Shown: positions 20,791-64,000 of the stretch, piece after piece
Layout of the letters: each line of letters begins with the position of its first letter
How positions within the stretch are numbered: position 1 is the stretch's first letter
Assembly (NCBI GenBank): GCA_963924555.1
Contig: OZ004592.1
Coordinates: 2,542,001-2,606,000, forward strand
DNA from: Crambe crambe
Taxonomy: Eukaryota > Porifera > Demospongiae > Poecilosclerida > Crambeidae
Direction: 5' to 3'
DNA: 64,000 nucleotides
Notes under the pieces: generated by a model
Told to the model about the DNA's origin: nothing
Seen by the model: only the letters and a program-made list of their open reading frames with translations
The model's database searches: none
Made by a program: the position numbers and the translations under genes

Positions 20791-21834
20791 TACATATCTG
20801 ACATTCAGCCACACCATTAACCACTGAATCAGCCACACAAAACATCCACTGGTCCAGCATAGTAAGCATGTGTAACCACGCGTGTCTGTACTTCCCATAC
20901 CACTCATCACATATTTACGAACAGTACCACAAGTTCCCAACCTCATCCTTAGTATGGTACCAACATGTTCACCCTCATCCTTCATATAAAAGTACAGATA
21001 AGTTCCTAACCCTCATCCTTCATATAAAAGTACAGATAAGTTCCTAACATGTTCATCCTCATCCTTCATAGCTATAAAAGTACAGTACCAACATGTTCAC
21101 CCTCGTCCTCCAAACACACAACAGTAATACATACATAGTTGCTACTGGCTCTGAAGTACCCTCCCTGTATGGTAGTGTTGGTCTCCTCTCCCTTCCTGTC
21201 CCTCCCCTTCCCATCCCTCCCCCTTCCTGTCCCTGTCCCTCCCCCTTCCTGTCCCTCCCCCTTCATACCTGCAGTGTTCTGAAGGTGACTCTGCTGGCTA
21301 TGAAGTATCCTCCGTCATCCAACTTTCTTATACGGTAGTTTATACGGTAGTGCTTGATCCCTTCCCCATCACGAATCGACAGTGACAGAATTCTTCTGAC
21401 TGGAACTTGTGTGAATCAAGAATGTCCCATTGACATTCCCAGCAAATAGTAACCACTTCTCGGCCTCTCCACGGGGGATGTCCCCAAAATACCAGCTGCA
21501 AAAGGCAACAAAGGGGAGAGAGGATAAATCATTGCTATTGGGGTACATGTACAGGAAGTGTTCCAGTGGGAGGGGCTGTGTGCTACAATTCATTCAGGTG
21601 GTAAGAACTCCTCCTGTAATCAGGACACTCCTCCACCCCACCCCACACATGCACACAAATACATCAAAGAGAAAAAGTCACATGACCAACAAAAATACCA
21701 CCAGATTTTTAACAAGCAACTTGAGATGACTTTACAATGGTTTCTTGTTCAAGAAAGTGATTGTGTGAAAGTGAAAGTATTTGGCTCTCTGTCCAGTCTT
21801 GCAGTACATCTTACACATGCATGCACATGTTATG

Positions 21835-22270
21835 ATATATGTACAACCACACCACAGTATAACCATGTACATGCATATGCCTTACAACCACACCACAGTA
21901 TAACCATGTACATGCATATGCCGTACAACCACACACATGCACATGTCATGATACATGTACACCACGCCACAGTACAACCACGTACATCCACATGTCATGA
22001 TACATGTACAAGCACACCACAGTACAACCACATACATGCACAGTCCATGATACATACAACCACATAGCTACATGTACGGGCCATGATACATGTACAACTA
22101 CACCACAGTACTACCATGTACGTACATGCACAGCTACAGGTCATGATACATGTACACCAAACCATGTACCACGGTACAAACATGTACAGGCCATGATAGC
22201 TATATGTACAACTATGTACACGCACAGGCCGATGAATGATGTACACACCACAGCACATGTTGCACACTAC
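21835..22270. repeat. degenerate minisatellite (ACATGTACA / CATGATACATG)
   Basis: Irregular tandem copies of a roughly 35-50 bp unit containing CACCACAGTACAACCA and CATGATACATGTACA. The reverse-complement counterpart in the plus arm is 62690-63090. Open frames here are repeat artefacts. Confidence 0.8.
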
Positions 22271-22762
22271 ACCACCCATCACCACCCTTACCATCTTTAC
22301 ACATCACTATGTATGTATGTATGTATGTGTGTAGCTATGTATGTATGTATGTATCCACACGTCCATAGCATAAGATTTGTCACATTTCACACCATGCAAG
22401 GGATCCCAAGTTGTTATAACTCTATGTGTCACTCCGATACACAGTTGTAAGGTGTGGTCTATGCAGCTGTAGTACATACAGAGCCGGAGCCAGCTCATTT
22501 GTAGTGGTACGGCCATAGCTACCCCAGTAAAATTTTCAATTTCAATCTGGTATGTTCTAGGCAATGCCATGTAGCTACTAACTTATAAGTCATTGTTATT
22601 ATTCAAACAAAACCAAAAAACTCAGAATGGTGGTACAGCCATGGCCGTACCAGCCGTAGCAATGCCTCCAGCCATGACATACATACGTAGCTGTGGTGAA
22701 TCGGATTGGGTCATTAGTTAAGAGCAATTGGTTATGTATCTAGAGCCACAGATGAATGTGGT

Positions 22763-22815
22763 ATGTATGTATGTATGTATGTATGTATGTATGCATGCAT
22801 GTATGTAAGTATGTA
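22763..22815. repeat. (TATG)n microsatellite
   Basis: About 12 tetranucleotide units. The plus arm has the matching but longer (ATAC)n at 62064-62155. Confidence 0.9.
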
Positions 22816-23108
22816 TGTCAGTGTATGGATTCCTCCAAACTCAACAATGTCCTGTTCTTGCCTGTCCTATTGCTCTCCCCCAACAAGAGTGTGTAACATA
22901 TCTTGGGACACTGTGCTCTAAACCAACAACTCTTGTCACTGTGGCACCTTGTTGTGTGGTCTCTTAAAACAATGGCCCCCCAGGGTGCCTGAATTAGACT
23001 GTTTATTCATCACCATGGTGCTAATCTTCCTGTTAATGGGAAGAGAGGGTGACTATAGGTTCATAACAGATTCCAATTGATAACACACAAAGCTGTGTAC
23101 TCGAGGAC

Positions 23109-23503
23109 TAGGCATGGGGCTAATATGCTCTTCCTATTATTCTATTCTGCAGTGCTCCCCCAGAAGACCCATTATTCTTTTTATAGTAGCCTATTATTCT
23201 CAATAAAATGTCATGAAAGAGTACTTTTTGAACTGTGCATAGCATTAAAGATGTATAAGTTTCTTGCTGATCCCTAAAAGGATGTAAAAAAATCTCACTC
23301 AGAATGCACATACGTACCAGTATCAATTTTGTGCCAAGTCAAGACGCCAGCACTTGACAATCAGATAAAGGCTAGGGAGGAGTGAGGAGCAAGCTATAAT
23401 AATGACTGCAACCTATTATTCTGTCTTTTAAGCCTATTATGCTGCTATTCTAGTGAGGCCCTATTATTCCCATTTTTATGCTAGCATATTAGCCCCATGC
23501 CTA
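23109..23503. mobile_element. hAT-like MITE with perfect 8-bp target duplication
   Basis: 395 bp with terminal inverted repeats TAGGCATGGGGCTAATATGC and its complement. It is flanked on both sides by TCGAGGAC (23101-23108 and 23504-23511). The plus arm near 61735 has the unoccupied site, with a single copy as CCTCGG. An 8-bp duplication is typical of hAT elements. No coding capacity. Confidence 0.88.
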
Positions 23504-24524
23504 TCGAGGACTGTCCACTTGATAACACTTTCATTATATAAAGCTGTGTACTTGAGGACATCCAGAATGTGTCAACAATACCACATCACATCTGGCTGGA
23601 CATCTCCACTAAACATTGAAAAGCATCAAAAAACATGAGAAGCCGTCTACATACCACTTATGCTTAAATTATTATTAATTTGCCACTAATGAACTTTCTA
23701 TATTAGTATGGGGCAATGATTTGACTGTTACACACTTAATGTGAGCAGTGTTCCAGTGTAGGGAGAGAGTACTAGTGTGGGCAGTGAGTGTAGGGAAGAC
23801 TTGATCAGTGAAGAGAGTATTTTGTTGATCTAGTATGGGCAGTGTAATTCCAAGTATGTGTAACTGAGCAGGGTGTATGTATCACCGTGGAAACAGGATA
23901 ACTCTATACCCTTAAGACTGACTCAAGAGTAACATCCCAGATTTAAAAACACTATCATAATTATTTCAGTCACAATCCTCTGTTATCAATATCGACTGTT
24001 CATGACCCCTTGGCTCTACATAATCTCCTGCAAACATTATGGGGCTTACCCAAGGTCATAAAAAACAAAACAAAAACAAACAGACAACAACAACAACAAC
24101 AACAAACTGTAAACATTAGAACAGAAAACTTCTCAGCCAACTTGCTAGTGTGGGGCTTGCTTCGTTTGCCCCTATTATTGACTAGCTGGAAAAGATATTT
24201 ACGGGGTTCATTTGCAAATTTGGGGAGCCCACATTGAGGGATTCCAGTGTATTCATGATCAGAGAATATTAGGCCCCATCCTGAATTTAGTTACACAATC
24301 AGCACTGACACTCACAGATAGCAACTGATGACATTACTGTTAAAAAAAACTCTCCATCATAGCTAAGTGCAACATTAATGGATGGACGTCAAAATTACAA
24401 ACAGTCAGGAGGCCAAGATTACTAGTCAGGGGGTCAAGATTACTAACAGGGAGTTATGGGGGCAACATTACTAACAATGGGTTATAACAGTCAGGGGGTC
24501 AGTATTCAGTCGAGGGGGTCAACA

Positions 24525-24910
24525 CAGTGGCGTAACTAGGCTTGATTGAGGGGGGTTCACAAAGATATTCATGTGCTCTCGTACATGGAAAAAATTTGCC
24601 TGGCCATGCCCACTTTTGGCCCACTTGATAAAATTAGTCCTTCCCACAATGATTCGGTGTGGGTTCATTGCTATGAATCTGGACAGAACTTCTTCTATGT
24701 TAATATCCATGTTGTAATGTGTGTCCAAATCACTTGTTCTCTCCTGTCCCATAGTGGATCAAAGGTAGCACCTCTTAGCTTGCTAATTCAGCCAAAATAC
24801 TCTACTGTACCTATAACCACCAAGTTAGGCTATGGCTATGGCCATACTTGGTAGGTGAAAGGGGGGGGGGGTTCACATGCAACCTGTGAACAATAGTAGT
24901 TACGCCCCTG
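24525..24910. mobile_element. hAT-like MITE (CAGTGGCGTAACTA ends)
   Basis: 386 bp starting CAGTGGCGTAACTAGG and ending TAGTTACGCCCCTG, with CAACA on both sides. The matching site in the plus arm (about 60700) lacks it. End sequences fit hAT-type elements. No coding capacity. Confidence 0.8.
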
Positions 24911-25224
24911 CAACAAATCATATTGTGAGTTAGAGATAGGACTCCACACTGTGTTCCTTAGAGGCCTAGAGGGAACTGTGTGCAAATTAGAGAATTGCGG
25001 ATACATACAGTTTCACACACGTACACGCACACACAAATCATAGCCTGAAGCATGGCTTTATGTGATGCAAGGGAACAATTAAGTGGTCGATTGCAACCAC
25101 TGTGACACTGGAAGTACAAAGGTTGATGTACTGCTTCTGAATCAATCTGAACTCAACAGACAGAGGGTAATTAACGACATCATACACCATATCATCTGAC
25201 CAATAGCATATGATTATAAAGATA

Positions 25225-25420
25225 AAAGTGATGCATGTAATAAAGTTTTTGTACCTACTGAACATGTAATAAGGTTGTTTGTACACACTGAGAAGTTGTT
25301 TGCACCTACTGAACATGTAATAAGGTTGTTTGTACCCACTGAGAAGTTATTTGTACCTACTGAACATGTAATAAGGTTGTTTGTACCCACTGAGAAGTTG
25401 TTTGTACCTACTTGAGCATG
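25225..25420. repeat. minisatellite, about 51-bp unit
   Basis: Tandem units containing TGTTTGTACCTACTGAACATG and ATAAGGTTG. The same units occur in reverse at 60160-60260 in the plus arm. Confidence 0.85.
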
Positions 25421-25685
25421 TCCCATAGAGTGCTATTTTCACAGTAACTTCTTCACAGTAACTAGCTAATGACTAACAGGAAATTGTTACCATGAAAATA
25501 TCATTGGCTGGCATTATTTGTTGCATGTGGCACTCGAGTCATTTGAATGTACTGGCCAACAGAGTCATACAACTACGTACACCTTCCACTATCATGAGTG
25601 TACAGGACAAGTTATCAGGACACGTTAAGTGTATATCATAAGTGTACAGCTGCCTGTACAGAATACAGGACACTTTTTAAAGTGT

Positions 25686-25792
25686 ACAGGATAGCCTCGT
25701 TATATTTCCTTGGACACACCCACACTTAGTATGGTTTCTAGATATTTTCACGTACCAGACCCTCCACAATCATAATTCGGACGAGGCTATGT
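25686..25792. mobile_element. internally deleted foldback element (AGCCTCGT ends)
   Basis: About 105 bp between AGCCTCGT and its complement ACGAGGCT. The plus arm carries the longer version at 59348-59930, whose two arms share TTCACGTACCAGG and CCTCCACAATCATAA. Confidence 0.6.
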
Positions 25793-28391
25793 ACAGGACA
25801 CGTTATTCATTATGTGTACAGCTGCCACTATGAGTATCATAAGCTGTCAGAGCCAATTATTGGTTGGCAAGGGTACCGGGTGACCCTATTCTTGAATTAC
25901 AGAGTATTCAATGGGAGGATACTAGCTAGAAAATAATCATATCAATCAAGAGATCAATACATTAAGTTGCTTCTCATAATCATGCGCACACTGCTATAAT
26001 CATGTTACCATAGAAATGTCAGTGCAAGGCACCCCCTACACTTTGTACTCTGCAGGTTCGTGAGGCTCCACTTACAGTGTTAAAGCATTATTTATATGTA
26101 CCTTTATACAACTAACCACAAGAATGGAAACATTGTAGAGGGTGTAAACAAGGGCTATGCTCATGACCATATAATGACTGCTTCATCTGTGTGCTATGAG
26201 GTATGGAGTTAAGTACATGTACAATGCCCAAATATGTATATCTCATTATTAGATGAGGAAATGCCACCATGAGAGTTTATAACCCATTGATTTCGATCTC
26301 AAACCCCTAATTACACTTGGATGGAGGGTTAGTAAAAAGACGTTATGACAGCTAGTACTTCATAATTCCATGAGTAGATAATTATAGTTATTTCATGAAG
26401 ACTAGAAGCCCTCCCTCACTACATAGCTAGTCCAATTATAGGATCATGAATAATTCCAAATGCTTGGCCATTACATAATTATGTAGTGACAAAAGAACAA
26501 GTTCATCCAGAAAACCAACAAACAGCAATAAGGAGTCACACCCATTGTGATATTGTGATCCTCAATCTTGTGCTACCCAATAGGAGGAAACGAGCAAAGC
26601 CCCAACATGTGCAATTAATTATCACTAAGACTTGTGTAAGAGCCTTATTTATGTAAGAGTCAAGAATGTGGCCAATCAAAAATAAATAAATAAATAAGTC
26701 GAACTCAGTAGCTATGTAGGTTTCTTAGGTTTCTTCAGCTGTTAATCAAGCTGTCTCTTCATTTCAGAGCACAAATTCATACATGAAGTTATCTTTATAT
26801 GTGTAAAAAATGTTGTAGTTGTAGCCAGCTTTTATAATTATGAATCACAGACCAATGTTTCTGGATTCCCCATTCCTCTACACTTGATCTAAAATAAACC
26901 ACAAGGAATTGATGCATCACGTACTTCAACAAAAGGCTTCAAGCTGTACACACACACCACAATAGCTGGCAACAAGTAAAGGAGCACGGTTAGACATGTG
27001 AATGGAATGCTGAAGCCAGTGAAAGGTCGTGTAGCTGCTACCTTCTCTATTGACACAACAAGCTTGTATCCCAAGGGACCAAGGGGGGATATGACTTATG
27101 CATGCTCCAGCAGTCAAGTAGTGCCTTTGTGCACACATACCACACAAAAAGCATGTCAGTTCACCACATACCTTATGCACATAATAGTGAAATCCACTCA
27201 ATTGGATCAATAATGAATAAGGAGTATAAAACCATAAGAGAAGTATTCCAGCCCTATTTCTAGAAAGCTTAGTGTCCAACTCCCATAATTCATTCCATAG
27301 AAAGCCCTTTACCAAGCGTCGATCCACATACGTACTGAATGAAATGCTCTGGACAGTGCTATATAACATTGTGTATACTTCTCGAGTTCTACTCCAAGTG
27401 AAACAGCTATCTGAGTGAAACAGCTCTTACTAGAACTGTTAACTCTAATGGAGTGCCTCTAACGCAAAACTCTTATGGACGAGTCTTAGCTAAGTCCATT
27501 ATGGGATCAACTTGGGGATTGGTGACTCACGGCATGTAATGATATTATAGTAACACACCATCCCATGACATTATGCTTGGCATAGCTACTATGGGACAAG
27601 TGTAATGAACCCTGCACTAGGGGGGCCTGGGGTATAGGATAGCTGTAGGGTAATGAGTACACATCAATATTATGACTACAGGGCATTATAATATGTTATA
27701 CCCACACGTCACATGCATACATGTATGCATATGGGATGGGAAATACTCCACATCCTTCAACTAAATCAATTCATAGGTCCATATACAACATAGTAGAAGT
27801 ATACATACTAGAACCTAGCTATGTACTCACTTTCAATTGTTCTCCTTTTTCAAAACTGAGATCCTCCGATGTCCTGGCCTGGTAGGCATAGCGGGCCACA
27901 AAGAGGGACCCATCGTCCTTGGGGAGAGGGACACTGGGGAGCCGCTGATTGTAACCAACGCTCCCATTCCGTGAGTTGACACCACCACTGGCAACAGATA
28001 TTCTGTGCTGGGAAGGTTGTTGAGTGAAGGGTTGCTGAGCGGGTGTTTGGCCTGAGGTGGTTGGGGGAGTGTAATGGTTTTTAGATTCTTCTCCTGCGGT
28101 TTACTATCTATGCACCCCATGACTTATCAGTGGAGGGGTAACTCCTAAACTTCTATTCTCCTGGAAGCATAATTTCACCAAATGACTCTCATATGTTAAT
28201 GAGTGATTAATACTGCATCTTGAGATAATTATTCTGGTTACATCATATTTTAATACAAAAATGTATGTGTACATATAATATAGTTGTGGCATGATGGCTC
28301 TGCCTAATACCTAGGAGGTTTCTTATTGAACTCTAGATATTCATCCTCAAGTCTTCAAAGGAGGAACTACTTTGTCTGTGACCAGGATTTG

Positions 28392-31300
28392 CTACATTGA
28401 AGTGACCTGTGTAAGATCAGATTCGAGTGCAATAATGCCACATGCCATGCCATGGGGGAAAAGGTTACCTGTTATCTCTTTCAATGAGGTGTCATCACTG
28501 CTATCTTGTTTCACTGCAAGATCCTTATTACTGCTCATCTTTGTTGAGATACTGTTATTGCTACCCTGCAGTGTTGAAATATCTTTACTGCTGCCACCCT
28601 GAACCATTACATCTTTACTGCTGCCACCCTTCAATGAAGTATCCTTACTACTGCTCCGTTTCATTGGCATCATAGAATAGTCCTCACTACATTGACCTGA
28701 AAATAAGAATTTCAATTTAAGTCCAAAATGCAATTTATAACTATTACAATCATATTCACGTTAGCTCACACTAATCCATGCTTTACATTAGGCCATTAGG
28801 CTCTCCTTGAATAAGTTTCAAGAGAACAAAATTTTATCATACCAAGGTCTGCCTTGCCAAACTTGTCATCACTCCACTCCTCAAGTTTCTTTTGGTCAAT
28901 GCTATCATAGTGTGTATCATTATTTTGGCTTGGGGTTTCTTGAAGCACTTCAGATTCAACTCCTTCCCCTCTGTAACTTTGGCAATCGCCTAGGGTACTT
29001 TGGCTTCTATAATTCACAAAAAAATAAAATAGATACACACGTTTGCATGGACCATGTATCATTAATAATCAGACAGGTGAAACCGAGACACTCCCCGTGT
29101 TAATTTCAGTGCATTGGAGATGAAGAATTATTTCTAGTTCTTTAGCTGCAGCTCTTTAGGATCTAGGATGACCTATTATTTCAGCGGTCACATGATTGCC
29201 ACACCATCTTGCACTGGAAACACTTTTTGAGTGTGAGCTTTAGTAAACCCAATGACTCTGGGTAACTCAATGGACAGAAATCTAACTTAGGTAGCTAAGT
29301 ACATAATGTATTTACGGGCACCACTCACCTATTCCTGTACCTGTGCTGACCATGACTACCTTGGCTACTATAGCTACTGCCACTTAAGCTTCGATGTAAT
29401 GAACCACTATAGATACTTTGCCTTGAAGACTTCTTATTCTCTGCTCTTCTCTTGTAATATATTATCATACAGCTGCAGCATGTGATGATAATGATCAATA
29501 GGAACACGACCACAAATACAGAGAGAACTGCAACTGTGACAGTATTGCTGGGCCTCGAACATGGGTTGCTCACACCACTGGGCAGCACTAAAAAAATGAA
29601 GGGAGAAAAAAATTTGTCAACATGGCCAAGAGAAAGACATCCTCTATTTTCTTTCCTCTCTAAGAAATAGCTTTCTTTCCTCTCTAAGAAATAGCTGAGG
29701 AATTTATTCAGAGGAATGATAAGAGGAGGAAATGTTTTGGACATCTTAAGTCTTAGCTAACATATAATTACAGTGAATAATTGTTGATAATGACTTTTTT
29801 AATACGAACATTAACTAGTAGTCCAGGTGGCTAATATTTTTAGCTTCCTACTCCACTGCCTGTACAACATAGCAGGTCATCATTGAATCATTGAAAGACT
29901 TGGGTGACACCTCATGTAACTGCTGGCTGTCAAAGGTACACTATGGGTCTACCACCTGTGTGTGGATCAAGTATGGCTGCTGAGTCAGGTAATAGTCCCC
30001 CAGTCTAAAGCCCCTCTTCTTGGTTGGATGACTGCAAGAAACATGTACATATTATGTTCAAATGGAGATAGCTGAGAGCTCCATACTTGTCTTTTTTTTC
30101 TTCTTTCAATAGTACTTAGCTAAGATAAAAGTAGTTGTACATTCATGTACAAGGGTAACTGCACTGAAGTTTTAAAATGGGACAGTCATAGCTATTCATT
30201 GCAGACCCTTTTCCCTGAAATATCCATAATATTGAAGTGAACGGACTATACAGTAAGAATCACCACTGATCACAGACAACAGAGATTACAGTCCAAGCGA
30301 GGCAAAGAGAAAGTGAAGAATGATAACAACATCAGATTGAGAGGAAGCACCAAGATCTGTCACAGGCCCAACAACCGTAACATTGCAAGAGTAGCTACAA
30401 GAGCAAGACGCCAAGAGCAGAAGCATGGACTTCAAGTATTGTGAGTGTCAGAGAGCATACACAAGAACAGTGAGAGATAAAACTACATTGCAGCTAGTGA
30501 GCAAGGACCAGTGAAATAGTGATTGTAACTACAGCAAAAAGCTTAGCAAGTTAACAATCACTAAGAAAGTACAGGGAGCAAGAGAACAAGAGCAAGAGTA
30601 GAAGATAGCTACAAAGTGACAGTCTGCAAGAGAGCTGATAAAGGAGTACTATAGCAGCATTGACATGATCATCTTCACTTCCTTCAGTCCAATGACAGTG
30701 TTGGCCTAAGTCTACTACATGCCAAGGCATGAAATCTTTTAAACTTATTATCATCTATACGACAGATGTGCAGGCCAAACCAATTAAATTTCCTGTTTCT
30801 CACATTCAAAGTAAAGTGCCAGTCTTGTAGACAGCCATCTTTGCATACACACTATGCAGACAAAATGTACCTAGCTTCATAGTTCTGCATGTTGAAATGC
30901 AGCTAAAAAGGTACTTGTTTTTATTTCGCACACAGCATTCATACTTTTGTGATGAAGAATATTAGGTTTGAACTACTTCCTAGCATGATTTACAGTTTTC
31001 CTTGTCTTCTCAGCTGCCTGAACAACTGGCCTGGTTCCATGGTACGTAGATGAACATGGAGTTCAATGATGTAGTGCACTTATTATCGTCATTTCCTGCC
31101 ACGTGGCATATGTCCTCATTTTGGGCGCCTCTGCGCCTCCTTTTTATATATATACCTGTGTGTGTCATGTAAATTATAATTGTTATTAGTCTGTCAAAAG
31201 TAAGTGCGATTACTATACTCTATGGTCCTAAGTTGTGACAAAGTTATCACAAATGACACTGCCAGTAAAACCAGCTTGCTAATGGTTAGGCTGAAGCTTA

Positions 31301-34300
31301 ATTTTTCAGCTTAGTAATGCTTAGGCTGAGGCTTAGACAACTGGTAGCTTTTGCTGGTGGCCAGCTGGCCTCCCTCCATTTGAGCTCCTGCTGTTAACTT
31401 AACTATAAAAAGTATCATGTCATCATATAACTTAGCCCATGCAGGAGATAAAGCCTCCCCCCCGTGAATTTTATTGCCATCACTGCAATAAAGGATCACC
31501 ATAACAGTTTTAGATATTCTATACCAATTTTAGCAGATGACCGTGAGAATGGTCCTGTAGCTCCATCAGTAGTCACAATTGCAGCAGCTGCACTGAAGGA
31601 TCGAAAACTGGGCAATTTTTCCTTTTCTATTTGAATATCAATCACATTAGTATCTTGGAGAGAATGATCAAAAATGACTCTATCTTCAGTTTGTGAATTG
31701 GAAGCATAGAAACGGACTTTTAGTAGAAATATTCCGATTATGTGAGCAGGCAATACACCCCTCATACGAACTTCATCATTTTGAACAGTCAGGTCCACAT
31801 TGAAGTTATTAGCTGCGTGTGGGGTGTGTGTGCAATCAGATAATGATGGTTTTTAAGATAATGCTTGTGAATACAGCCACACAATCCATGGTATAGCTAC
31901 TCTATTGTGGTTTAATTGCCTAGAACTGCTCAGGGTCACTGGACCATGGAAAGAGAGCACAAAAAAGGTTACCTTAAGGTGACTATTATTAATGGGGTCA
32001 AAATTTTAGCGATTTTGCATTTCTTTGTATTTAATTTAGCGATTTTTGTGAATAAAAGAATGTGTGAACCACAATACACATGGACAGCTACAATACAAGA
32101 AAGCCCTGGTGAAGTGTGAGGAGCTTGTTACCAAGCTCTACCAAGCTCTGATGAAGTTCTTGAAGGCTTAGACTCTGATACAGATGAAGAAGAAGAAGAG
32201 CAAGATCAATGAAGTGCTGCACTAGTGAAGAGAAAGTACAGAGAAGAGAGCAACACTAGCCAGCTGTGGGAAGCTTGGTGAAATTCTGTTTGTTATTTGT
32301 AATAATATTCATAGTTATTTGTAATTTTATTCATAGTTACTTTGTGATGTAATATTTCATTAGTGGGTACAAAATAATATGAACGATTATTAATAAATTG
32401 CTAAAATTCGCTAAAATTAGTACCCGTTTTTTATAGTCACCTTAAGGTAGCTCTAATATAGATGAAACAGGGGTGTATCCACAGAATTTTGAGTGGCCCG
32501 GTGTGACTGTGTGTTGGATCGCCATGCCCACTTTATCCTTCACCCACTTATCAAAAGGGGTATGCTAGTGTGATCATGATTCTTGAAGGTCATGGTGCTT
32601 CATATACACATAATCACTTAGCTAACTCTGCAGGCATGGGATAGAATATTATTATTGGATAATAAAAGTGGTCCGGTGAAAATCGGACCAACTGGAGTGG
32701 TGGATACACCCCTGGATGAAAGGCAACTTCTAATGCCTGCCAGATAAGAGCACAATAATTTTAACTTACTCAATATGATCAGATTAGCAGTTGAGGAGAC
32801 AGCATTTATTTCAGCACCCTGCACAGGATCCATTTCTACACCCTGCACCTGGTAGGCCAAGCATGTTACTGGACCTGTGTGCCTCTCGGTCAACTGGATC
32901 AATACTAGGGTACTCTCTACAGTAATACCACTACGTTTACTGATTATTCCACTGTGTTGCTCAGTTCCATTCAGCAACCATTTAATCCGAGGTAATGGGA
33001 CTCCACTAGCATGACATGTGAAAGTAGCATTCCTACCAGTTTCCACTGCTACATTTCTTGGTGTCTTAGTGACTTGAAAAGAAGCTGAAATAAATAAAAT
33101 GAGAGAGGAAAACAGTATTATGATATTCCCAGCAATAGCTGCTTCCATAAGGTCATGAATGGTGGACTACTTTACCTTTATCTTCCCTATAAAGAGATCA
33201 TTTCTCTCTTATCCACCAACTACATATGTCAGTGGCGGATCCAAGATTTTCTAAAAGGTACTTCTTATTAGTGGGTGTCCCACTACCACTCCTATAACCA
33301 CACCCATTTTTATATTTTTCATTGCTAATGCTGTCAGGGTTGAATCCAGGGGTGGGGTTGAGGGGGTTGCAACCCCCCCCCCCTTTTGTTCCCAAGCTAA
33401 GCCTGTAGATAAAATGATACTCTATATTATAGCTAATGCAATTTGACCATGTCTACTTGCTTAGCCGTATCTATTTTTCTTGTGTTTCTGCTCTAAAGTA
33501 GTATAATTAGAGGAACACAATATATGAGCTAACTTAACCAAAATGAGTGTAGATACTACAGCCATCATCATCTAAGGCTATGGTCAAGAAAGAAACGCAG
33601 TCTATATATACGTGATGCATCCATTTTGGCTCACACTTTCAAGGTCACACTTTAGATAACTCAGTGCATACTAACTGAGACTTCCTTAAAAATTACACCT
33701 GTGATCTTGCATGTGTCACTTTAAAGGTATCCTTTGGAGCACTGGCTTTCATTTTCAAGGTCACACATTAGATAACTCAGTGCATACTAACTGTGATTTC
33801 CTTCATGAACACCTGTGACCTTGCATGTGTCACTTCAGAGTTTGAGTGCAATAGCTAGCTAGCAATTTTGAGATGGTTCACCCCTTATAATGCACACAAA
33901 TATGTGCTAGGGAGATTTGGGGGAAATTTTTGATTTTTTGGATCCAATTTGTGCATTATGAAGCAAAAATGCTAAATGCCCAAAAGGCAGCCTGCAAGTG
34001 AAGCTGTCATGGATCCTCCAAATAACTTGAACTTTCTTGCAGCCTTCCCCGTGGCCCAGTGTGCGTACTCCTAGTCCTGCAGCCCCACCTAGCTATCTAA
34101 AAATCCTGGTGGCTGTGCTAAATTTTAAGATGTGAATTAAGATGGGTACTTCTTAAGAAACTCCCACTGGAAGTATTGTCGACTGGAAAGAGAGTTCAAT
34201 GAGCAAGTTATTTATCTTGTGGAAAACTTCAGGAGGCTATTTTATATAGTTCTTATTTCAAATGTTGTGCTCAGGAAACTGTAATAGCCTATAGGTGCAT

Positions 34301-35105: not shown

Positions 35106-35432
35106 TTCTGCAATCAGAACATGGCAAAAGTGATGGTTCACTAAAATTACTATGTCGAACTGTCTTTCCCAACACCCTTACATACACAGTCATCTAGGTG
35201 GCACAGGACCACTCTCTCCAAAAGTGCAAAACCATCGAGCTATAGCTACAGGTACAAGTAACTTAGCTTGATAAGATAACTAGGTAGATTAAAGGATTAG
35301 CTAGCTGAAGTATTAAGTCTGTCATACCTGAAACGGCTGAGTCTTCCTATAGTTCCTGCACAGCTAGTTGTTGTTATTCCTGAGCGAGCATGCGCGCACG
35401 TAAGCATAGATATGACACGGATCATAGATATA

Positions 35433-35695: not shown

Positions 35696-35697
35696 TA

Positions 35698-36802
35698 AGA
35701 GGTTTTACGGGATTGGAAACGCCCAATGAACTGCACAACCGTGGCGCGTTGACAGATGCGCACGCGCATGCAGCATTAATTATAATTATATTAATGGTTG
35801 TGAAAAGAGATCAATATTCACTCCTTTCAAGGCATTTAAAGTGATGTTCTGCCCCACAGCTCACAGAATAGTACAAGTAAGCTAAGGGGAAGGTATTGAA
35901 GAAGTGAAGAGTCAGAGAGTTGAAGTTGGAGAGTGTGAAGAAGGAAGTTATTAATTATTCATAACTTTTTTCCTTGTAATTATAACTATGAGTACCTATC
36001 ATTGCTCATTATACATTAATTTTATGTGATTGATTTGAAAGAAAGGCCAGAATGACTTTTGGTATTAAAATTAGACATAGATTCATTATTATTATTATAG
36101 CTAGATAATTTTGCCCCGAAGTTATCTGCCAGTTTCTGCTCAGTTCTCCCTCATCAGCATTATTGCAATACTTCCAGCTTTTGGCTGTTGGATTTTGACA
36201 CCATCCACCTCAAGAATTCGGCTCAGTCAGCTGTCCTATGGACCCTATGGATATTAGGGGGGAAATATAGTAAGCTTGCCATCTCCATAGGATGACTATT
36301 GTATAGAAAACAAATGCACCAATTCCATTTACAGTTCTATCCTTTCCCTGAAATAACTAATACAGTTGAAATATTGTTAATCTATTTCTTGGGAGAGGGA
36401 TTACAGTTTTAACACCACTTGCAAATGCTAGAGACAATATATGTCTGCTAATACAAAAACTAACATTACTATTCCATGTAGCTAAAGTTTACATGCCTTT
36501 TGATCAGAAAATGGGCAACAGCAATTGATTCCATCAAGCGTGAGAAGGGAATACAGTCCCATTAACCACTACAGTAGTATTTGTAGGAATAAACTTGAAG
36601 TTCTGAGCTAAAATTTATTTCATACAGTAAATCTATGCCCTAGTGTATCATAGTATCATTGGCATAAGTCTTACCTCACGGATCTTATCAGAACAGCAAC
36701 TTTGACGAAAGTGCTGTCATTCAGCTGTCAACGCGCCTCGGTTGTTAGTTGCTAACGAAAGCACGTGATCCGTTTCCAATCCCGGATCCCGTATAAACCT
36801 CT
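35698..36802. mobile_element. 1.1-kb non-autonomous Tc1/mariner-like element, copy 1
   Basis: Starts AGAGGTTTTACGGGATTGGA and ends with the near-complement ...CCAATCCCGGATCCCGTATAAACCTCT, with TA on both sides. It is nearly identical over its length to 44115-45203. No long open frame. Confidence 0.88.
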
Positions 36803-46749: not shown

Positions 46750-46887
<138 letters not shown>

Positions 46888-50240: not shown

Positions 50241-51173
50241 TTGGAAATGCTACCTTCTCCAGTTCACTCGCCTTCTCCAGTTAGTTTACTTTCACCATCT
50301 TTAGGTACTGTGTCACCTCCCACTCATTTGCCTCCACGGTCTTCTAAATTGCTTCCTGTTCAGTTATCTCCAACATCACCTCTTCAATCAAATCAGCTTT
50401 TTCTAAAAGAAGGAAGTCAAATCGAGCAAGGATATCTAATAGATATATGTGGATTCCAGAATTAGGCTTGAGAAAATTTGACAAGAAAGTATTACAAAGT
50501 GAAACAGGTTGGCTTAATGACAACATAGTTGATGCTGCCCAGATTTTGCTTAAAAAAGTCTGCCCATTTCAAGGTTTGCAGAAAGTTTCACTCGGCATGA
50601 CTCTTATTTTTGAAGTTCAACGTGGTGAATTTATTCAAATTCTTAATACTGGAGCTGGTCATTGGGTCACTATTTCAACTATAGGCACTGATCATCCTGT
50701 TGTCAATATTTATGATAGTGCTGCATGTGATGAATTGCAACAACAAATTGCTTCTATTCTTATAACACCACATTCTTCAATTATTCTTCATTTTATTGAT
50801 GTTCAGCTTCAATCTAGATCATCTGATTGTGGCCTCTTCGCTATAGCATATGCTACAGCTCTAGTTTTTGGGGAAATGCATGCCTCAGAATTTTTGTTTT
50901 GACCAAAAGAAAATGAGGAGTCATTTGTTTAAATGCTTGGAAAATAAAAATATGACACTCTTCCCAACCCTGCATAAATGAAGAATAAGGCAAAGTATGA
51001 TAAAGGCTGTACAAGAAGTTGCTGTCCATTGCTCGTGCAGAATGCCTGAGATGGGAAAATTTATGATAGAATGCACCAACTGTAAACAATGGTTTCATGT
51101 TTCTTGTTATAAAAATATACCAAAGAAGGCATTTGATTCTAAGAAGTCATGGCTATGTTGTAATTGTAAATAA
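50241..51173 (+). pseudogene. Ulp1/SENP-like cysteine protease plus PHD finger, transposon gene
   Basis: The coding trace runs through a Pro/Ser-rich segment (50241-50465), a Ulp1-type C48 peptidase domain (50447-50902) and a PHD finger (51030-51172). Protease landmarks are GWLNDNIVDAAQ, GHWVTIST (catalytic His), VNIYDSA (Asp) and SSDCGLFAIAYATAL (Cys). After EF an extra base shifts the frame, and the next frame continues FDQKKMRSHLFKCLENKNM. A TGA follows FPTLHK where Arg is expected, then RIRQSMIKAVQEV and the PHD residues CSC, CTNC, WFHVSC and WLCCNC. Ulp1 enzymes cleave SUMO-like tags; transposon-borne copies are common in marine invertebrates, role unknown. This copy has one frameshift and one nonsense codon. 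A splice at 50447 is possible, so the upstream exon limits are uncertain. Confidence 0.75.
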
Positions 51174-51617: not shown

Positions 51618-53644
<2,027 letters not shown>

Positions 53645-54029
53645 ACAAGTGAATGCAAAAAATTTCTTCGAAATAAAAATGTGAAGTAGGGATGACCACA
53701 AATTTAGCACATAATTATTATAGCTATTATAACTGCAGCTTTATTATGAAAACCAAGTACTGCAGCATCGAAGCAGTATGGCCCAAAAATCTAGCTGGAA
53801 TATGTATTATAACTGCATGCAAGAGAGTGAACTTAGTGAAGTGACCCTTACCCATCATCAAGTACGAGATACTATTCCTACTTCACTCATGGCCATACTG
53901 CTTCGATGCTGCAGTACTTGGTTTTCATAATAAAGCTGCAGTTATAATAGCTATAATAATTATGTGCTAAATTTGTGGTCATCCCTACTTCACATTTTTA
54001 TTTCGAAGAAATTTTTTGCATTCACTTGT
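53645..54029. repeat. perfect 139-bp inverted repeat with 107-nt loop
   Basis: Arms 53645-53783 and 53891-54029 are exact reverse complements over 139 bases by eye. Left starts ACAAGTGAATGCAAAAAATT, right ends with its complement. The loop is 53784-53890. A diverged single arm lies at 53145-53240, so it belongs to a family of foldback elements. Confidence 0.9.
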
Positions 54030-54337
54030 ATGCACTAGGCTTATCTAAGTGCTTTGAGGTAGCATGTATGCAGCTGCCTGCCACCATTACATGACTCTTA
54101 GCAATATCAAGCACTGAAGCCTATCAGCTACTTTAATTGCTCACTTGCTCACTGTCAAATGCTGCACATTGCTACAGATACTCAACAGCAAATGAAAATC
54201 GTTGAAGAATACTTGCTTGCTCGCTCGCTGTCAACTGAATGTTGAACATTGCCCTAGTTAGACAAAATAATTATGATGAAATCAAAAACGGGAAAGTACG
54301 GAGGGAATCCAAATCCCCCGGAATGTGAGGGATCCGG

Positions 54338-55375
54338 TGTCATAAAGTTTCGGGGACCCCCTATTTTAGGGACCCCCGTCCCCAAATCTATGTAGATGTG
54401 GGGATCCCCGTCCCTAAATCTACGTAGATATGGGGACCCCCGTCCCCATATCTACGGTAGATTTGGGGACCCCTATGTAGATATGGGGACCCCAGCCTGT
54501 TTTGTCTAGCAGGCTAGCAGAGGTGTAACTAGCAGTGTTTTGTGCATTGGTCAGGCAAATACTCCCACTGGTCAGCTAGGCTCTCCCCCATTAACTGTAA
54601 CCTGAGTGGTATGAAGAATCTGGAGGTGTCGGTAGTCAAATTAGTAATCAAAATACTAAATTACTGAAGTTATGCAAACTGCATTAATGTTGTAGCTAGA
54701 CTCTCCCTGAAGTGAGGCCATCAGGATGTGGAAGATGTGTTGGCTTGTATAAATGCCTGACCTGCCCCAGCACTACACCTATGTGCGATTGTTCAGTACT
54801 TTTGGAAATCCTTGGTAGCTAATGATGCAGTTATTGGCTTGCCTCTATAATACCTCAGTTATCATGATGCAGTGAACATGATGCAGTTATTGTGGGCTAC
54901 TTGCTTGAAATAGTGTTGGCTATTTGAAGAGCTTTGGCTTTGGCTATTTGTATAACTATTAGCATGTGATAGGTGGGTTAGTTGTGCTATTTTGGGCAAA
55001 ATAGGGTTCTGAAATTGCCCTTTCGTTGCCAAATTGTACTTGCTTTGCTCGCACAATTTTGGCAACCATGCATGGACTATTTCAGAACCCTATTTTACCC
55101 AAATAGCACTACTATTACTACTACTACTACTACTAATAATAATAATAAGTTAGACTCAGCTACCATACTTTGAGCAGCCACCCTAAGGCCAAGATCTAAC
55201 ATAAAAGGTGTGGATTTAACTATTACTGATGTCTATGTAGATTTGTGGATGAGATATCTTCTATAAACATACATTAGGGATGGGGTCCCTATATCTATTT
55301 GGGAGTCCCCATATCTACGGTAGATTTGGGGATGGGGGGTCCCTAAAACTACGGGGTCCCCAAAACTTTATGACA
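54338..55375. mobile_element. TGTCA-ended element, CCGG target duplication, copy B
   Basis: 1038 bp with ends TGTCATAAAGTTTCGGGGAC and the near complement GTCCCCAAAACTTTATGACA, flanked by CCGG at 54334-54337 and 55376-55379. Both edges carry GGGGACCCC-type motifs as in copy A. It contains a nested hairpin at 54986-55107 and short (ACT)n/(AAT)n runs at 55108-55148. Confidence 0.88.
54986..55107. mobile_element. hairpin MITE nested in copy B
   Basis: 122 bp; arms GCTATTTTGGGCAAAATAGG and the complement CCTATTTTACCCAAATAGC, then a short loop. Non-coding. Confidence 0.75.
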
Positions 55376-55769
55376 CCGGTCTGCAGTAGAAACCATGCAG
55401 GCTCTCCTTTTCCGCCCCCACATTTCCCGTTTCACTGAGCTGTGAGAGCCTGGACGAGGCTAAATTTCTAGCATGACTTCCGGGGGCTCACCCATCAACC
55501 CTAATTGAGCGGTCAAATCTTGAACAAAGCAGTCACGCCCTCATCAGTTTTTTGATCTCCTGCAGTGAAGGTAGCGATTCTTGGACACCGGATGCGGCTA
55601 CTTAGCTAGACTTTGATCTTCTCGAAGTACTCGAAGTATCTTTCTAATAAGGTCCTTTTCGTCAAAACAATCAACATAGGTAAAAAAGCCGTAGTGCAAT
55701 TAGCTAGCTACATGCTGCCTGTAGCCAGATTATTAATGGGTACGTAGCTAGTGGATTTTAGCTTAGCTA

Positions 55770-55934
55770 CAGGGATTTTCAGGTTGATTGACACAAAATT
55801 TGCCGACTGTGCAGAATTAAATTCGTGCTCGCAAAATTTAAGATCATTGCATTTATATGACAGTATATTGTGCTCGCTTGAATTTATCTTGCACATGTGC
55901 AAATTCTACTGGTCAACCAACCTGAAAATCCCTG
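55770..55934. mobile_element. TA-flanked MITE (CAGGGATTTTCAGGTTG ends)
   Basis: 165 bp with ends CAGGGATTTTCAGGTTG and CAACCTGAAAATCCCTG, flanked by TA on both sides. Non-coding. Confidence 0.82.
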
Positions 55935-56316
55935 TACACTTTTTTTGCCAGCTACAATAATTGTATAAGCAATAGAGTATTATATTATAGTAGAATCTGT
56001 TCCCACAAGTCAAGTGTTGGTTATTTTTATGACAACTCAAAAGAAAACAAAATGCATGCCTGGCTGCACGATTTGTTGGATGAAATATAATTCATTCACT
56101 CTAAAGGGCCAGGTCAGTACATGAACTCTAATAAAGGATGTGGTGATTTTACACTTGCCATTAATGTGTTTCCCTCTGTCATTAATTTTGTTTGCCAAAG
56201 CGCTTGCTCATTATTTATAATGTAACATACAAGAGTCATTTGGTGAAATTACTTCCAGGAGAATACAAGTTTAGGAGTTGTTGAGCACCACTAGCCCACC
56301 CCTCCACTGACAAGTC

Positions 56317-59300
56317 ATGGGGTGCATAAATAGTAAACCGCAGGAGAAGAGTCCAAAAACCAACAGCGTACATTACACTCCCCCAACCACCTCAGTCCAA
56401 ACACCTGCTCAGCAACCCTTCACTCAACAACCTTCCCAGCACAGAATATCTGTTGCCAGTGGTGGTGTCGACTCACGGAATGGGAGTGTTGGTTACAACC
56501 AGGGGCTCCCCAGTGTCCCCTCACCTCTCCCCGAGGACGATGGGTCCCTCTTTGTGGCCCGCTACGCCTACCAGGCCAGGACATCAGAGGATCTCAGTTT
56601 TGAAAAAGGAGAACAATTGAAAGTGAGTGTTAATCACAAGGACAGGTTCTGCATATGTAGGTTCTGTATACTTCTATTGTGTTGCATATCCTACTCACAT
56701 GGACCTATGAATTGATTTAGTTGAAGGATGTGGAGTATTTCCCATCCCATACATGATGTGTGGGTATAACATGTTATAATGCCCTGTAGTCATAATATTG
56801 ATGTGTATTCATTATCGTACAGCTATCCTATACCTATAGATATCCTCCCCTAGTGCAGGGTTCATTACACTTGTCCCAATCACAGGACATAGTATGCCAA
56901 GCATAATGTCATGGGATGGTGTGTTACTATAATATCATTACATGCCGTGAGTCACCAATCCCCAAGTTGATCCCATAATGGACTTACGACTCGTGTGTTA
57001 CTTCAGAAGCATTCCATAAGAGTTTTGCGTTAGAGGCACTCCATTAGAGTTAACAGTTCTAGTAAGAGCTGTTTCACTCGGATTAGCTGTTTCACTTGGA
57101 GTAGAACTCGAGAAGTATACACAATGTTATATAGCACTGTCCAGAGCATTTCATTCAGTACGTATGTGGATCGACACTTGGTAAAGGGCTTTCTATGGAA
57201 TGAATTATGGGAGTTGAACACTAATCTTTCTAGAAATAGGGCTGGATACTTCTCTTATGGTTTTATACTCCTTATTCATTATTGATCCAATTGAGTGGAT
57301 TTCACTAATATGTGCATAAGGTATGCGGTGAACTGACATGCTTTTTGTGTGGTATGTGTGCACAAAGGCACTACTTGACTGCTGGAGCATGCATAAGTCA
57401 TATCCCTCCTTGGTCCCTTGGGATACAAGCTTGTTGTGTCAGTAGAGAAGGTAGCAGCTACACGACCTTTCACTGGCTTCAGCATTCCATTCACATGTCT
57501 AAGCGTGCTCCTTTACTTGTTGCCAGCTATTGTGGTGTGTGTGTGTGTACAGCTTGAAGCCTTTTGTTGAAGTACATGATGCATCAATTCCTTGTGGTTT
57601 ATTTTAGATCAAGTGTAGAGGAATGGGGAATCCAGAAACATTGGTCTGTGATTCATAATTATAAAAGCTGGCTACAACTACCATTTTTCATGCATATAAA
57701 GATAACTTCATGTATGAATTTGTGCTCTGCTGGATTGACAGTTTGATTAACAGCTGAAGAAACCTAAGAAATCTAGCTACTGAGTTCGACTTATTATTTT
57801 TTGATTGGCCACATTCTTGACTCTTACATAAATAAGGCTCTTACACGAGTCTTAATTGCACGTGCTTTACCTTTGGGGCTTTGCCCGTTTCCTCCTATTG
57901 GGTAACACGAGATCGGGGATCACAATATCACAATGGGTGACTCCTAGAATGTTGTTCTTGCTGTTTGTTTGTTTTCTGTTCTTTTATCACTATATTATAA
58001 TCATGTAACCAAGCATTTGGAATTGTTCATGATCCTATAATTGGACTAGCTATGTAGCGAGGGGGGCTTCTAGTCTTCCTGAGATAATTTCATTGGTTAA
58101 CTGGGACCCCCTCCTCCAGAGTAATAGTTGATGACCATCCTTCACCAACTAATCACTCTGTGCTTTGCAGGGATTGATATGTTTGTAGATAAAGTAAAGT
58201 TTTAAAATCTGTTCTGTTGCTTGGATGGGTATTGTAATAACTTAACAAAACCTGTTCTTGATTAAGTCGCAGTGGAACAAAACTAGTCTCAGAGGTTTGT
58301 GATTGTACATGTTATTTAACCAGAAGTGGGCACCTAAAGTAAAATACACTAATCAGTTCTTTGATTGAATAGTGTCTGTATGTATTGAGGTTCTGAAGTA
58401 TCTTCCTCTACCCATTACTGGATAATATCATGTGATGCTTGTGATTCCAGGGCCAATTTTTGTTGACCTGACATTATCATAAATTTCAAACACCTGCTAT
58501 AGCTAGCTGTAATCTCATGTCAGACTGTCCCTTACAGTCTCTGACATATGTACCCTCTCCCGATGCAGATCGTTGGTGGCATTGATGGGGATTGGTGGAT
58601 GGCCCGCTCCATCACCAGCGGGAGAGAAGGCTACATCCCTCGGAACTACGTGACACCCGTGACTAGCTTCGAGGCAGAGGAGTGAGTTGTGATTAAGTAA
58701 CCCTCACATGTACCTCTAATTATGATACTGTACACTCATGGAGTTAAGTACTATACTCATAACCCCTTACTCATCAAATTAAGAATTAATACTATTATTA
58801 TATATAACCCTCTACTCATGGAATTATGAAGTACTGTCATAATGTCTTTTTACTAACCCTCCATCCAAATGTAATTAGGGGCTTGAGATCGAGTCAATGG
58901 GTTATAAACTTTCATGGTGGCATTTCCTATGAGATATACGTATTTGGGCATTGTACACATACTTAACTCCATACCTCATAGCACACAGATGAAGCAGTCA
59001 TTATACTAACATAATTGGTGATAAACATTCAGCATAGTTGCTTACACTGTTTGCTGTATAAAGGTACATATAAATAATGCTGTCTGCATAAAGCAGAGTA
59101 CAAAGTGCAGGGGTGCCTTGCCTTAACTTCTGACATTTCTATGGTAACATGATTATAGCAGTGTGTGCATAATTATGAGAAGCAACTTAATGTATTGGTT
59201 GATTGTTTCTAGTATCCTCCCACTGAACACTCTGTAATTCAAGAATAGGGTCACCCGGTACCCTTGCCAACCAATAATTGGCTCTGACAGCTTATGATAC

Positions 59301-62300
59301 TCATAGTGGCAGCTGTACACATAATGAATAACGTGTCCTGTACATAGCCTCGTCCCCAGGTCCGAATTATGATTGTGGAGGGTCTGGTACGTGAAAATAT
59401 CTAGAAACCATACTAAGTGTGGGTGTGTCCAAGGAAACACATTCCCATCGCAAACGTCACCATGACGAATCGGTGCTATGACCACCACGCACGAGCACAT
59501 GGCCAGGCCTAAGAAAAGAAGAGGCATTGAGCTGCCACTGAATTTGAGTGTTGCTATACGCTTTGCTAGCCTAGCAGCAGATAGTATTGGAGCTGCTTAT
59601 CGTTAGATAGTAAACTATCTAGTAGTCTAGATTTTGTTCATCCTTTTTGGATCATAATATAGATTGGCCTCAGAATTCTAGTAAGTCCTTGGTTGTATGG
59701 CCATAACGAAATGGTCATTTTGTTGTAGCGAACCAGCAGAAGTTCTTCTGAACACCTGGTCCTTTAGGTTGATCCTGTAGTCACTCCAATCCATAGCCTA
59801 AATGCGCGGGCAGGGTCATAATGCTTTCATGCACTGCCCACGCCCAATTAGACGGTTCTATCCCCCTGTGACTTCACGTACCAGGCCCTCCACAATCATA
59901 ACTAAAAAGAGGGCCTGGGAGGACGACGCTGTACACTTAACAAAGTGTCCTGTATCCTGTGCAGGCAACTGTACACTTATGATATACACGTCCTGATAAC
60001 TTGTCCTGTTGTGGCAGGTGTAGGTGTACGTAGTTATGGTAACATGTATGACTCTGTTGGCCAGTACATTCAAATGACTCGAGAGATAATGCCAGCCAAT
60101 CAGATATTTTCATGGTAACAATTTCCTGTTGGTCATTAAAAATAGATCCATGGGACATGCTCAAGTAGGTACAAACAACCTCTCAGTAGGTACAAACGAC
60201 CTTATTACATGTTCAGTAGGTACAAACAGCCTCTCAGTAGGTACAAAAACCTTATTACATGCATCACTTTTATCTTTATAATCATTTTGGTCAGATGATA
60301 TGGTGTATGATGTCGTAGCATTCTTAATTACCCTCTGTCTGTTGAGTTCAGATTGATTCAGAAGCAGTACATCAACCTTTGTACTTCCAGTGTCACAGTG
60401 GTTGCAGTCAACCACTTGATCGGTCCCTTGCATCACATGCTTCAGGCTATGATTTGTGTGTGCATGTGTGAAACTGCAATTTTCTAATTTGCACACAGTT
60501 CCCCCATGATACAGTGCTTTGCAAGTTGGTTGGCACTCAGCTCTACTTTCCACTCTGCCAGTTGTACACCTAAGACAACTATGAATAACTAACTTAGCTC
60601 TACATACAATTACTTTAACAGAATGCTACAACTGGTGAGTGGGAAGTCAGCAGAGTGCCAACCAACCTGCAAAGCACTGTACACAGCTATCTCTAACTCA
60701 CATTGACCCCCTTCGACTGAATACTGATCCCCTGACTGTTATAACCCATTGTTAATAATGTTGACCCCATAACCCCCTGTTAGTAATCTCGACCCCCTGA
60801 CTAGTAATCTTGGCCTCCTGACTGTTTATATTTTTGACTAATGTTGCACTTATGATGGAGAGTTTTTGAACAGAATGTCATCAGTTGCTATGCCTATGTA
60901 GCTGCGAGTGGAAGTGCTGACTGAGTAACTAAATTCAGGATGGGCCTGTGTCTGGGCCTGATCATGAATACACTGGAACCCCTCAATGTGGACTCCCCCA
61001 AATTTGCAAATGAACCCCCTATGTACTTGCTACACTTTTCCAGCTAGGGGTGAACGAAGCAAGCCCCACACTAGCGAGTTGGCTGTATGTTTTAATATTT
61101 ACAGTTTGTTGTTGTTGTTTTTGTTTGTTTGTTTATTGTTGTTTATTTTGTTTTTTTTTTGTTTTTGTGATGACCTTGGGTAAGCTCATAATGCTTGCAT
61201 TTCCCTAGTAGGAGATTATGTAGAGCCAAGGGGTCATGAACAGTCAGGGAGTCAACATATTGATAACGGAGGATTGTGACTGAGATGATTTTTTAAAAAT
61301 CTGGGATGTTACTCTATGCCACTTGAGTCAGTCTTAAAGGTATAGAGTTATCCTGTTTCCACGGTGATACATACACCCTGCTCAGTTACACATACTTGGA
61401 ATTACACTGCCCATACTAGATCAACAAAATACTCTCTTCACCGATCAAGTCTTCCCTACACTCACTGCCCATACTAGTACTCTCTCCCTACACTGGAACA
61501 CTGCTCACATTAAGTGTAACAGTCGAATCATTGCCCCATACTAATATAGAAAGTTCATTAAGTAGCAAATTAATAATAATTTAAGCATAAGTGGTATGTA
61601 GACGGCTTCTCATGTTTTTTGATGTTTTTCGATGTTTAGTGGAGATGTCCGGCCAGATGTGATGCGGTATTGTTGACACATTCTGGATGTCCTCAAGTAC
61701 ACAGCTTTATATAATGAAAGTGTTATCAAGTGGACAGTCCTCGGGTACACAGCTTTGTGTGTTATCAATTGGAATCTGTTATGAACCTATAGTCACCCTC
61801 TCTTCCCATTAACAGGAAGATTAGCACCATGGTGATGAATAAACAGGTTTATGTACTAATTCAGGCAGCCATTGTTTTAAGAGACCACACAACAAGGTGC
61901 CACAGTGACAAGAGTCGTTGGTTTAGAGCACAGCGTCCCAAGATATGTTACATACTCTTGTTGGGGGTCATTGGTTCAGAGCAATAGGACAGGCACTAGT
62001 GATATGCTATGCACACACTACAAGAATAGGAGGTTGTTGGAAGGTCGTTGGTTTGGAGGAATCCATACATGCATACATACATACATACATACATACATAC
62101 ATACATACATACATAGCTACATACATACATACATACATACATACATACATACATGCCACATTCATAGATACATAACCAATTGCTCTTAACCAATGACCCA
62201 ATCCAATTCACCACAGCTACGTATGTATGTATGTATGTATGTATGTATGTATCCAACGTGCATAGCATAAGGGATCCCAAGTTGTTACAACTCTGTGTGT

Positions 62301-63591
62301 GTCACTCCAATACACAGTTGTAGGGTGTGGTCTATGCAGTTGTAGGGTGTGGTCTATGCAGTTTTAGGGTGTGGTCTATGCAGTTGTAGGGTGTGGTCTA
62401 TGCAGCTGTAGGGTGGGTCTACATGTATGGGTGGTGTAGTGTGCAACATGTGCTGTGGTGTGTACATCATTCATGGCCTGTGTGCAGAGGTGTTGGAAGC
62501 AAGATTCGCCAGGCCCGAAATTGAAATGTAATCCCACAGACCACTGAAGCTCTACAATTTGTTATATTTGAGCATCTTTCTTTTGTTTTTGATTGATAGC
62601 TACTTGATAATTAACCTTCTTTTCTCAAAATATTGGTCAGGCCTGGGCCTGACTGGCCTGACCTGTTCCACTGCCTATGGTGTGTGTACATGGTTGTACA
62701 TGTATCATGGCCTGTACATGTTTGTACTGTGGTGTGGTGTGGTGTGGTGTACATGACATGTGGATGTACGTGGTTGTACTGTGGTGTAGTTGTACATGTA
62801 TCATGGCCTGTGCATGTAGCTATGTGGTTGTATATGTATCATGGACTGTGCATGCATGTATGTGGTTATACTCTGGTGTTGTATTATGGCATGTGCATGT
62901 ATGTGGTTGTACTGTGGTGTAGTTGTACATGTATCATGGCCCTTGCATGTAGCTATGTGGTTGTATATGTATCATGGACTGTGCATGCATGTATGTGGTT
63001 ATACTCTGGTGTTGTATTATGGCATGTGCATGTATGTGGTTGTACTGTGGTGTGGTTGTATATGTATCATGGCATGTGCATGCATGTGTAAGATGCACTG
63101 CAAAGATTGGACAGAGACTTTCACTTTCACACAATCACTTTCTTGAATGAGAAACCATTGCAAAGTCATCTCAAGTAGCTTGGTGATATTTTTGTTGATT
63201 GGTCATGTGACTTTTTCTCTTTGATGTATTTGTGTGCGTGTGTGTGGGGTGGAGGAGTGTCCTGAAGTCTTACCACATGAACAAATAGTAGCACACAGCC
63301 CCTCCCACTCGGACACTTCTATGTACCCCAATAGCAATGATTTATCCTCTCTCCCCCTTTGTTGCCTTTTGCAGCTGGTATTTCGGGGACATCCCCCATA
63401 GAGAGGCCGAGAAGTGGTTACTATTTGCTGGGAATGTCAATGGGACATTCTTGATTCGCACAAGTTCCAGTCAGAAGAATTCTCTGTCACTGTCAATTCG
63501 TGATGGGGAAGGGATCAAGCACTATCGTATAAGAAAGTTGGATGATGGAGGATACTTCATAGCCAGCAGAGTCACCTTCAGAACACTGCAG
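56317..63591 (+). CDS. Src-family tyrosine kinase SFK3 (partial, intact so far)
   Basis: Exons 56317-56622, 58569-58681 and 63375-63591 join in phase (636 nt, 212 aa) and end on a phase-0 donor (CTGCAG|GTATG). The linker and kinase exons must lie beyond the window. [11 protein letters not shown] predicts myristoylation at Gly2 and palmitoylation at Cys3, like vertebrate Yes/Lyn. SH3 spans about 78-138 ([32 protein letters not shown]). SH2 starts at [12 protein letters not shown] with FLIRTSSS (binding Arg present), [18 protein letters not shown] and GGYFIASR. It is the undamaged sister of psiSFK2, which indicates the expected continuation (DLVQHYM linker, then kinase). Role: membrane-proximal phosphotyrosine signalling. 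Confidence 0.9.
59348..59930. mobile_element. foldback element in SFK3 intron 2
   Basis: About 580 bp. The left part reads AGCCTCGTCCCCAGG with ATTATGATTGTGGAGGGTCT; the right part reads TTCACGTACCAGGCCCTCCA and ends in AGGACGACGCT. A shortened version lies at the same place in the minus arm (25686-25792). No convincing gene inside. Confidence 0.6.
62064..62155. repeat. (ATAC)n microsatellite
   Basis: About 22 tetranucleotide units with one GCTAC interruption. A second (TATG)n run follows at 62222-62252. Confidence 0.93.
62690..63090. repeat. degenerate minisatellite (TGTACATGTATCATGGCCTG)
   Basis: Plus-arm counterpart of 21835-22270. Irregular copies of about 60-120 bp include one nearly exact repeat (62790-62930 versus 62920-63060). 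Open frames here are artefacts. Confidence 0.8.
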
Positions 63592-64000
63592 GTATGAAGG
63601 GGGGAGGGAGGGGGGAGGGGGGAGGAGACCAACACGAGGGTACTTTAGAGCCGTAGCAATTATGTATGTAGTACTGTTGTGTGTTGTGCGTGTTTTATAT
63701 GAAGGACGAGGGTGAACATGTTGGGAACTTGTCTGTACTTTATATGAAGGACGAGGGTGAACATGTTGGGAACTTGTCTGTACTTTATATGAAGGACGAG
63801 GGTGGACATTGGGAACTTGTGGTACTGTTTGTAAATATGTGATGAGTGGTATGGGAAGTGTGCTGACTGGTGGATGTTTTGTGTGGCTGATTCAATGGGT
63901 AATGGTGTGGGTGAATGGAGTGGTATGTAGATATGTAAACATTGGAGTATAAAATAGAAGGAAACATGTTTCACATTTAGAGGGGGCATATCAAGAGAGG

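Follow-up and report, generated by a model that had tools for sequence, protein, structure and literature searches.

A sponge Src-family kinase locus with three copies and a probable history of direct duplication, reciprocal loss and inverted duplication

Introduction

In the sponge Crambe crambe, two Src-family kinase genes face in opposite directions on either side of a receptor-like gene, which raises the question of whether they are the arms of one palindrome or the products of separate events. The window analyzed here is the whole 64,000-nucleotide stretch that holds them (bases 2542001-2606000 of contig C15), in an assembly of 143 Mb and 119 contigs. It was compared with itself together with 40 kb on its left and 100 kb on its right (204 kb); positions given below are window positions, extended past 64000 for the sequence on the right. 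The whole analysis was made on the sequence of this one assembly.

Three copies of the Src block

An inverted match between 20950-28205 and 56205-64000, covering 5' flank, exons and introns, had been proposed from the window in a sequence-only reading. The match is real and lies near those coordinates: 20781-28198 (A) pairs in reverse with 63947-56223 (B) in broken blocks of 75-87% identity, gaps counted, of which the first is 20781-22225/63947-62680 and the last 26388-28198/58087-56223, and the introns and 5' flank match as well as the exons. When one arm was reversed without complementing, no match was found, and plus-strand comparison of the arms gave four short matches of low-complexity type only (29-155 bases). 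The antidiagonal expected in a self-comparison is thus present but discontinuous, as the alignment contains 166 indel events (4,015 bases in total, three of them longer than 480 bp). The longest identical run reported is 291 bp, the sole run of at least 200 bp. The proposed arm ends are close but cut the match short: A reaches 17860 in the Src gene and 14201 in the neighboring gene, and B reaches 66883.

A 1.8-kb arm probe found three matching places in the 143-Mb assembly. The self-comparison likewise shows three copies of the Src block, of which the window contains A and B, and the third, C, lies beyond its right edge. Unit A (14201-28198) pairs in direct orientation with 76267-90659 of unit C (76267-91241), while copy B (55462-66883, with 55462-64000 in the window, plus strand) is an 11-kb inverted copy of 91241-80123 of C, and is inverted relative to A as well. 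The pairing was partly misread from the window because the window edge cuts the locus. A plasmid collection searched with the arm gave zero matches, as expected for animal DNA.

The probe search places four Src-family genes in the 204 kb, namely S0 (plus), A (minus), B (plus) and C (minus). S0 (4257-13424), with SH3, SH2 and kinase domains, lies outside the duplicated unit. Its SH2 end and whole kinase domain form one exon, whereas exons 4-7 of C (80204-82169) have three introns there, a difference that may reflect the loss or gain of introns among related Src genes. Three strong tandem tyrosine-kinase domain matches, the top three of 122, are found about 300 kb to the right (2907173-2913224 of contig C15), and a long series of such matches occupies the plus strand of contig C16 (5422000-6050000). 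Several src-related kinases have reportedly been found in another sponge, Spongilla lacustris.

Divergence among the copies

B and C differ at 111 of 10,899 aligned bases (1.0%) with the ends trimmed, or at 133 of 10,951 before trimming, and are separated by 44 indel events, including a 165-bp insertion in B that is missing from C. A is far more distant, with 995 substitutions from B in 8,908 aligned bases and 948 differences from C in 8,818, about 11% in each case, a divergence that comes partly from badly aligned repeats, single windows reaching 27-45%. Judging from these distances, the sister of B is C, not A as had been proposed, and A and C appear to descend from an older direct duplication. 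Over all aligned bases, B carries 50 private changes and C carries 35.

Probable reciprocal loss in units A and C

Unit A contains a membrane-protein-like gene (13889-17641, plus strand) that is open and encodes a 1250-aa product; its 1283-aa frame gave zero Pfam matches. In unit C, the corresponding copy is missing its first 102 residues and so starts at residue 103; it contains one stop, and a Helitron-like element occupies its expected start. A genome-wide search for the part lost from C, with 13430-14260 of A as query, returned 11 matches: the window itself, the edge of the remnant in C (60 bases) and nine weak relatives of 69-79% identity.

The Src-family genes of the two units show the opposite pattern. 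In A (17954-28139, minus strand), a match to exon 2 is absent, exons 1 and 3 are altered in length, the acceptor AG of exon 5 is lost and exon 7 contains a TGA; no open frame passes through all exons, and by these lesions gene A is to be regarded as a dead pseudogene. Gene C encodes a protein of 524 aa in seven exons, whose splice sites are regular. Its phmmer match to Fgr extends over residues 77-520 (E = 2.4e-179), with SH3, SH2 and kinase domains at full length, and its best solved matches over these domains are Fgr, Src and Hck. The exon model starts with MGC, placing at Gly-2 a candidate site for N-terminal myristoylation, and a tyrosine is located near the C-terminus. In all these features C resembles Src-family kinases, whereas A is broken and the glycine loop of B is altered; C is the likely working gene. 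The open membrane-protein gene in A and the intact Src gene in C suggest reciprocal loss after the old direct duplication, where a gene is called kept if its predicted frame is open.

Apparently relaxed constraint on gene B

Gene B (plus strand) has exons 1-3 in the window (56317-63591; 56317-56622, 58569-58681 and 63375-63591) and exons 4-7 past its end, at 64826-66814. All seven exons are open with splice sites kept, and the protein is identical to that of C at 514 of 525 positions, stop counted. The glycine loop GxGxxG is not preserved, since two of its three glycines are replaced relative to C (G264R, G269W), and P416H falls in the activation segment. Positions in the glycine loop and the activation segment matter for kinases. 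The expectation that one arm would hold a decayed gene and the other an intact one was therefore right about A; B is open, yet not plainly intact.

With A as outgroup, itself a pseudogene, 10 nonsynonymous and two synonymous changes fall on the B branch, whereas zero nonsynonymous and four synonymous changes fall on the C branch (P = 0.008, Fisher's exact test, for the small set of 16 coding changes that could be polarized). A 17th change, nonsynonymous, is in exon 2 and is unpolarizable because A is without that exon. The nonsynonymous to synonymous ratio on the B branch fits neutrality; the changes look neutral and the gene seems to be drifting. Gene B has presumably lost its function. That B is instead a new pseudokinase, with SH3, SH2, frame and splice sites kept and the kinase disabled, acting as a decoy against intact C, is in our view highly improbable.

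A Helitron-like element between B and C

The Helitron-like element (66886-76265) separates B from the gene remnant of C. It encodes both a Rep-type N domain (Helitron_like_N, PF14214, E = 8.6e-29) and a PIF1 helicase (PF05970, E = 4.5e-12), together with an OTU domain (E = 4.4e-12), in separate, several overlapping frames. Its 5' end at 66886 is the start of 34 of 41 other matches (40 of 913 candidates scored), and its 3' end at 76265 is common to more than 40 of 124 matches, some of which are two matches within one copy. Capture of B by the Helitron was considered and is not favored, as B lies outside the 5' end at which those other matches stop.

On the other side of B lies a shortened copy of the element's 5' end, in inverted orientation (52816-54254, minus strand). 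The two element ends flanking B (52816-54254 and 66886-68411) share 95-98.6% identity, lie in inverted orientation and have their outer termini toward B. Another repeated element (54334-55379), which has a copy at 100% identity on contig C2, stands beside B at its outer end.

The spacer between B and C (66884-80122, 13.2 kb) consists of the Helitron and the broken gene. It is not repeated in B, and its gene part has its sole other copy in A, as expected of the single-copy spacer of a fold-back duplication. At the B junction, the element is without its terminal CTA, which is present in five of five other copies (the left copy and four elsewhere). Between the 3' flank of C and the flank expected from A, 4-6 bp could be shared (TTAA to TTAATA), a short and AT-rich stretch that presupposes an old flank of C beside the element like that of A. 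Among 200,000 random junctions, at least 4 bp are shared in 1.9% and at least 6 bp in 0.2%.

Origin of the locus

Taken together, we consider it probable that the locus was built by a direct duplication, then reciprocal loss, and then a young inverted duplication beside the Helitron-like element. The first step would have been the direct duplication, into A and C, of a block at least 14 kb long that held the membrane-protein gene and the convergent Src-family gene. Each unit would then have lost one gene: the Src gene decayed in A, and C would have kept its Src gene while its membrane-protein gene was cut at codon ~103 by the element. More recently, an inverted copy of the Src gene of C (B, 11 kb) would have been joined to the outer end of the element. 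Most likely a break occurred next to the element and the broken end primed by fold-back, or switched template, at the 3' flank of C, after which B would evolve as if unconstrained. We infer the break and the fold-back because together they would account for B as an inverted copy, for the spacer and for the absence of the start of the membrane-protein gene in C. Since fold-back by itself would cost the chromosome its distal part, a second switch, back at 55462, would be required, and no parental sequence was found for that junction.

In the main rival, B arose as a direct copy and became inverted at a later time, when the oppositely oriented element ends at its sides recombined. In its favor are the near identity and the inverted orientation of these ends, whose outer termini are turned toward B. 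By itself, however, it does not explain why the left flank of the element in C, where the membrane-protein gene would begin, has been lost, or why the element terminus is trimmed on the B side, and it requires more steps. We regard this inversion as unlikely.

Since two alleles of one animal could differ by 1.0%, and a single assembly was available, B and C might also be two haplotypes of one locus, misjoined. An assembly artefact of this kind would have to account for the inversion of B and its own flanks, for the many indels including the 165-bp insertion, and for a coding pattern in B unlike that of C, and the three places found by the probe include no further haplotype copy. It is very unlikely.

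The least likely proposal, and an extremely improbable one, is that of a single palindrome with A and B as its arms, exchanging sequence and flipping the receptor gene. Although the two are inverted and share the 291-bp identical run, C is far closer to B, and in none of the 26 alignment windows does A lie nearer to either of the other copies than these two lie to each other. Of the proposed exchange between the arms, no A-B trace was found, and the B/C differences show an even spread (variance/mean 0.91-1.22). Arm-to-arm gene conversion in a palindrome was accordingly rejected, high-identity patches between the arms being absent from the 26 windows. The sequence-only reading thus finds partial support: the region does contain Src-family genes in an inverted duplication, one copy of which has decayed, but the sister pairing was wrong.

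The region between A and B

The gene enclosed by A and B (28395-35177, minus strand) is receptor-like, with an immunoglobulin-domain match (Ig_3, E = 2.1e-13, at 32618-33166), a further weak Ig match and a hydrophobic stretch. No sign that this gene has been flipped was found in the one assembly. B and C share 11 identical runs of at least 200 bp, against the one shared by A and B, so recombination between B and C is the likelier. It would flip the 13-kb B/C spacer more easily than the receptor gene at 28.4-35.2 kb.

Other repeats were observed between the receptor gene and B. A 1.1-kb direct repeat of 95% identity is located at 35696-36812 and 44113-45213. Short-unit repeats at 46752-46885 and 52121-52289 align with one another in numerous registers, at 94-100%. 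A 184-aa open frame at 50348-50902 gave sub-threshold Pfam matches (Peptidase_C48, E = 0.029; Acetyltransf_14, E = 0.019) and is possibly derived from a transposable element. Elsewhere on contig C15, another cluster of large direct duplications, of about 72-94% identity, is found at 117070-163000 (L009-L013).

Comparison with known duplications

Fold-back at a double-strand break, in the human cases as far as the available text describes them (PMC3907307), yields an inverted copy, a kilobase-scale single-copy spacer and, at the edge of the spacer, short inverted microhomology or repeats; the first two are paralleled here, and perhaps the third. Spacers of 766-70,466 bp and inverted microhomology of 2-8 bp in 13 of 21 junctions are given there. 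Those cases are large and are accompanied by adjacent terminal deletions, translocations or rings, whereas the present locus is interstitial and small (11 kb) and has a transposable element in its spacer. In the genome of the sponge Ephydatia muelleri, duplicated gene clusters are reported to be widespread, and segmental and tandem duplication there resembles the present case in that clusters are copied with exon-intron structure kept and introns varying; the accessible part of that account describes no inverted Src pair or reciprocal loss (PMC7385117). Among the literature titles found, none deals with sponge Src genes paired in inverted orientation, which is not proof of absence in print.

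The types of event are already known, and the locus is a clear example of serial duplication. A 64-kb view of it can misname the sister and overlook the working gene. One locus would hold an ordered series, in which an old direct duplicate was resolved by reciprocal loss and was followed by a young inverted duplicate, and gene B has apparently been caught decaying by missense changes ahead of any stop. It also offers a testable case in which the point where the inverted duplication turns is occupied by a Helitron-like element.
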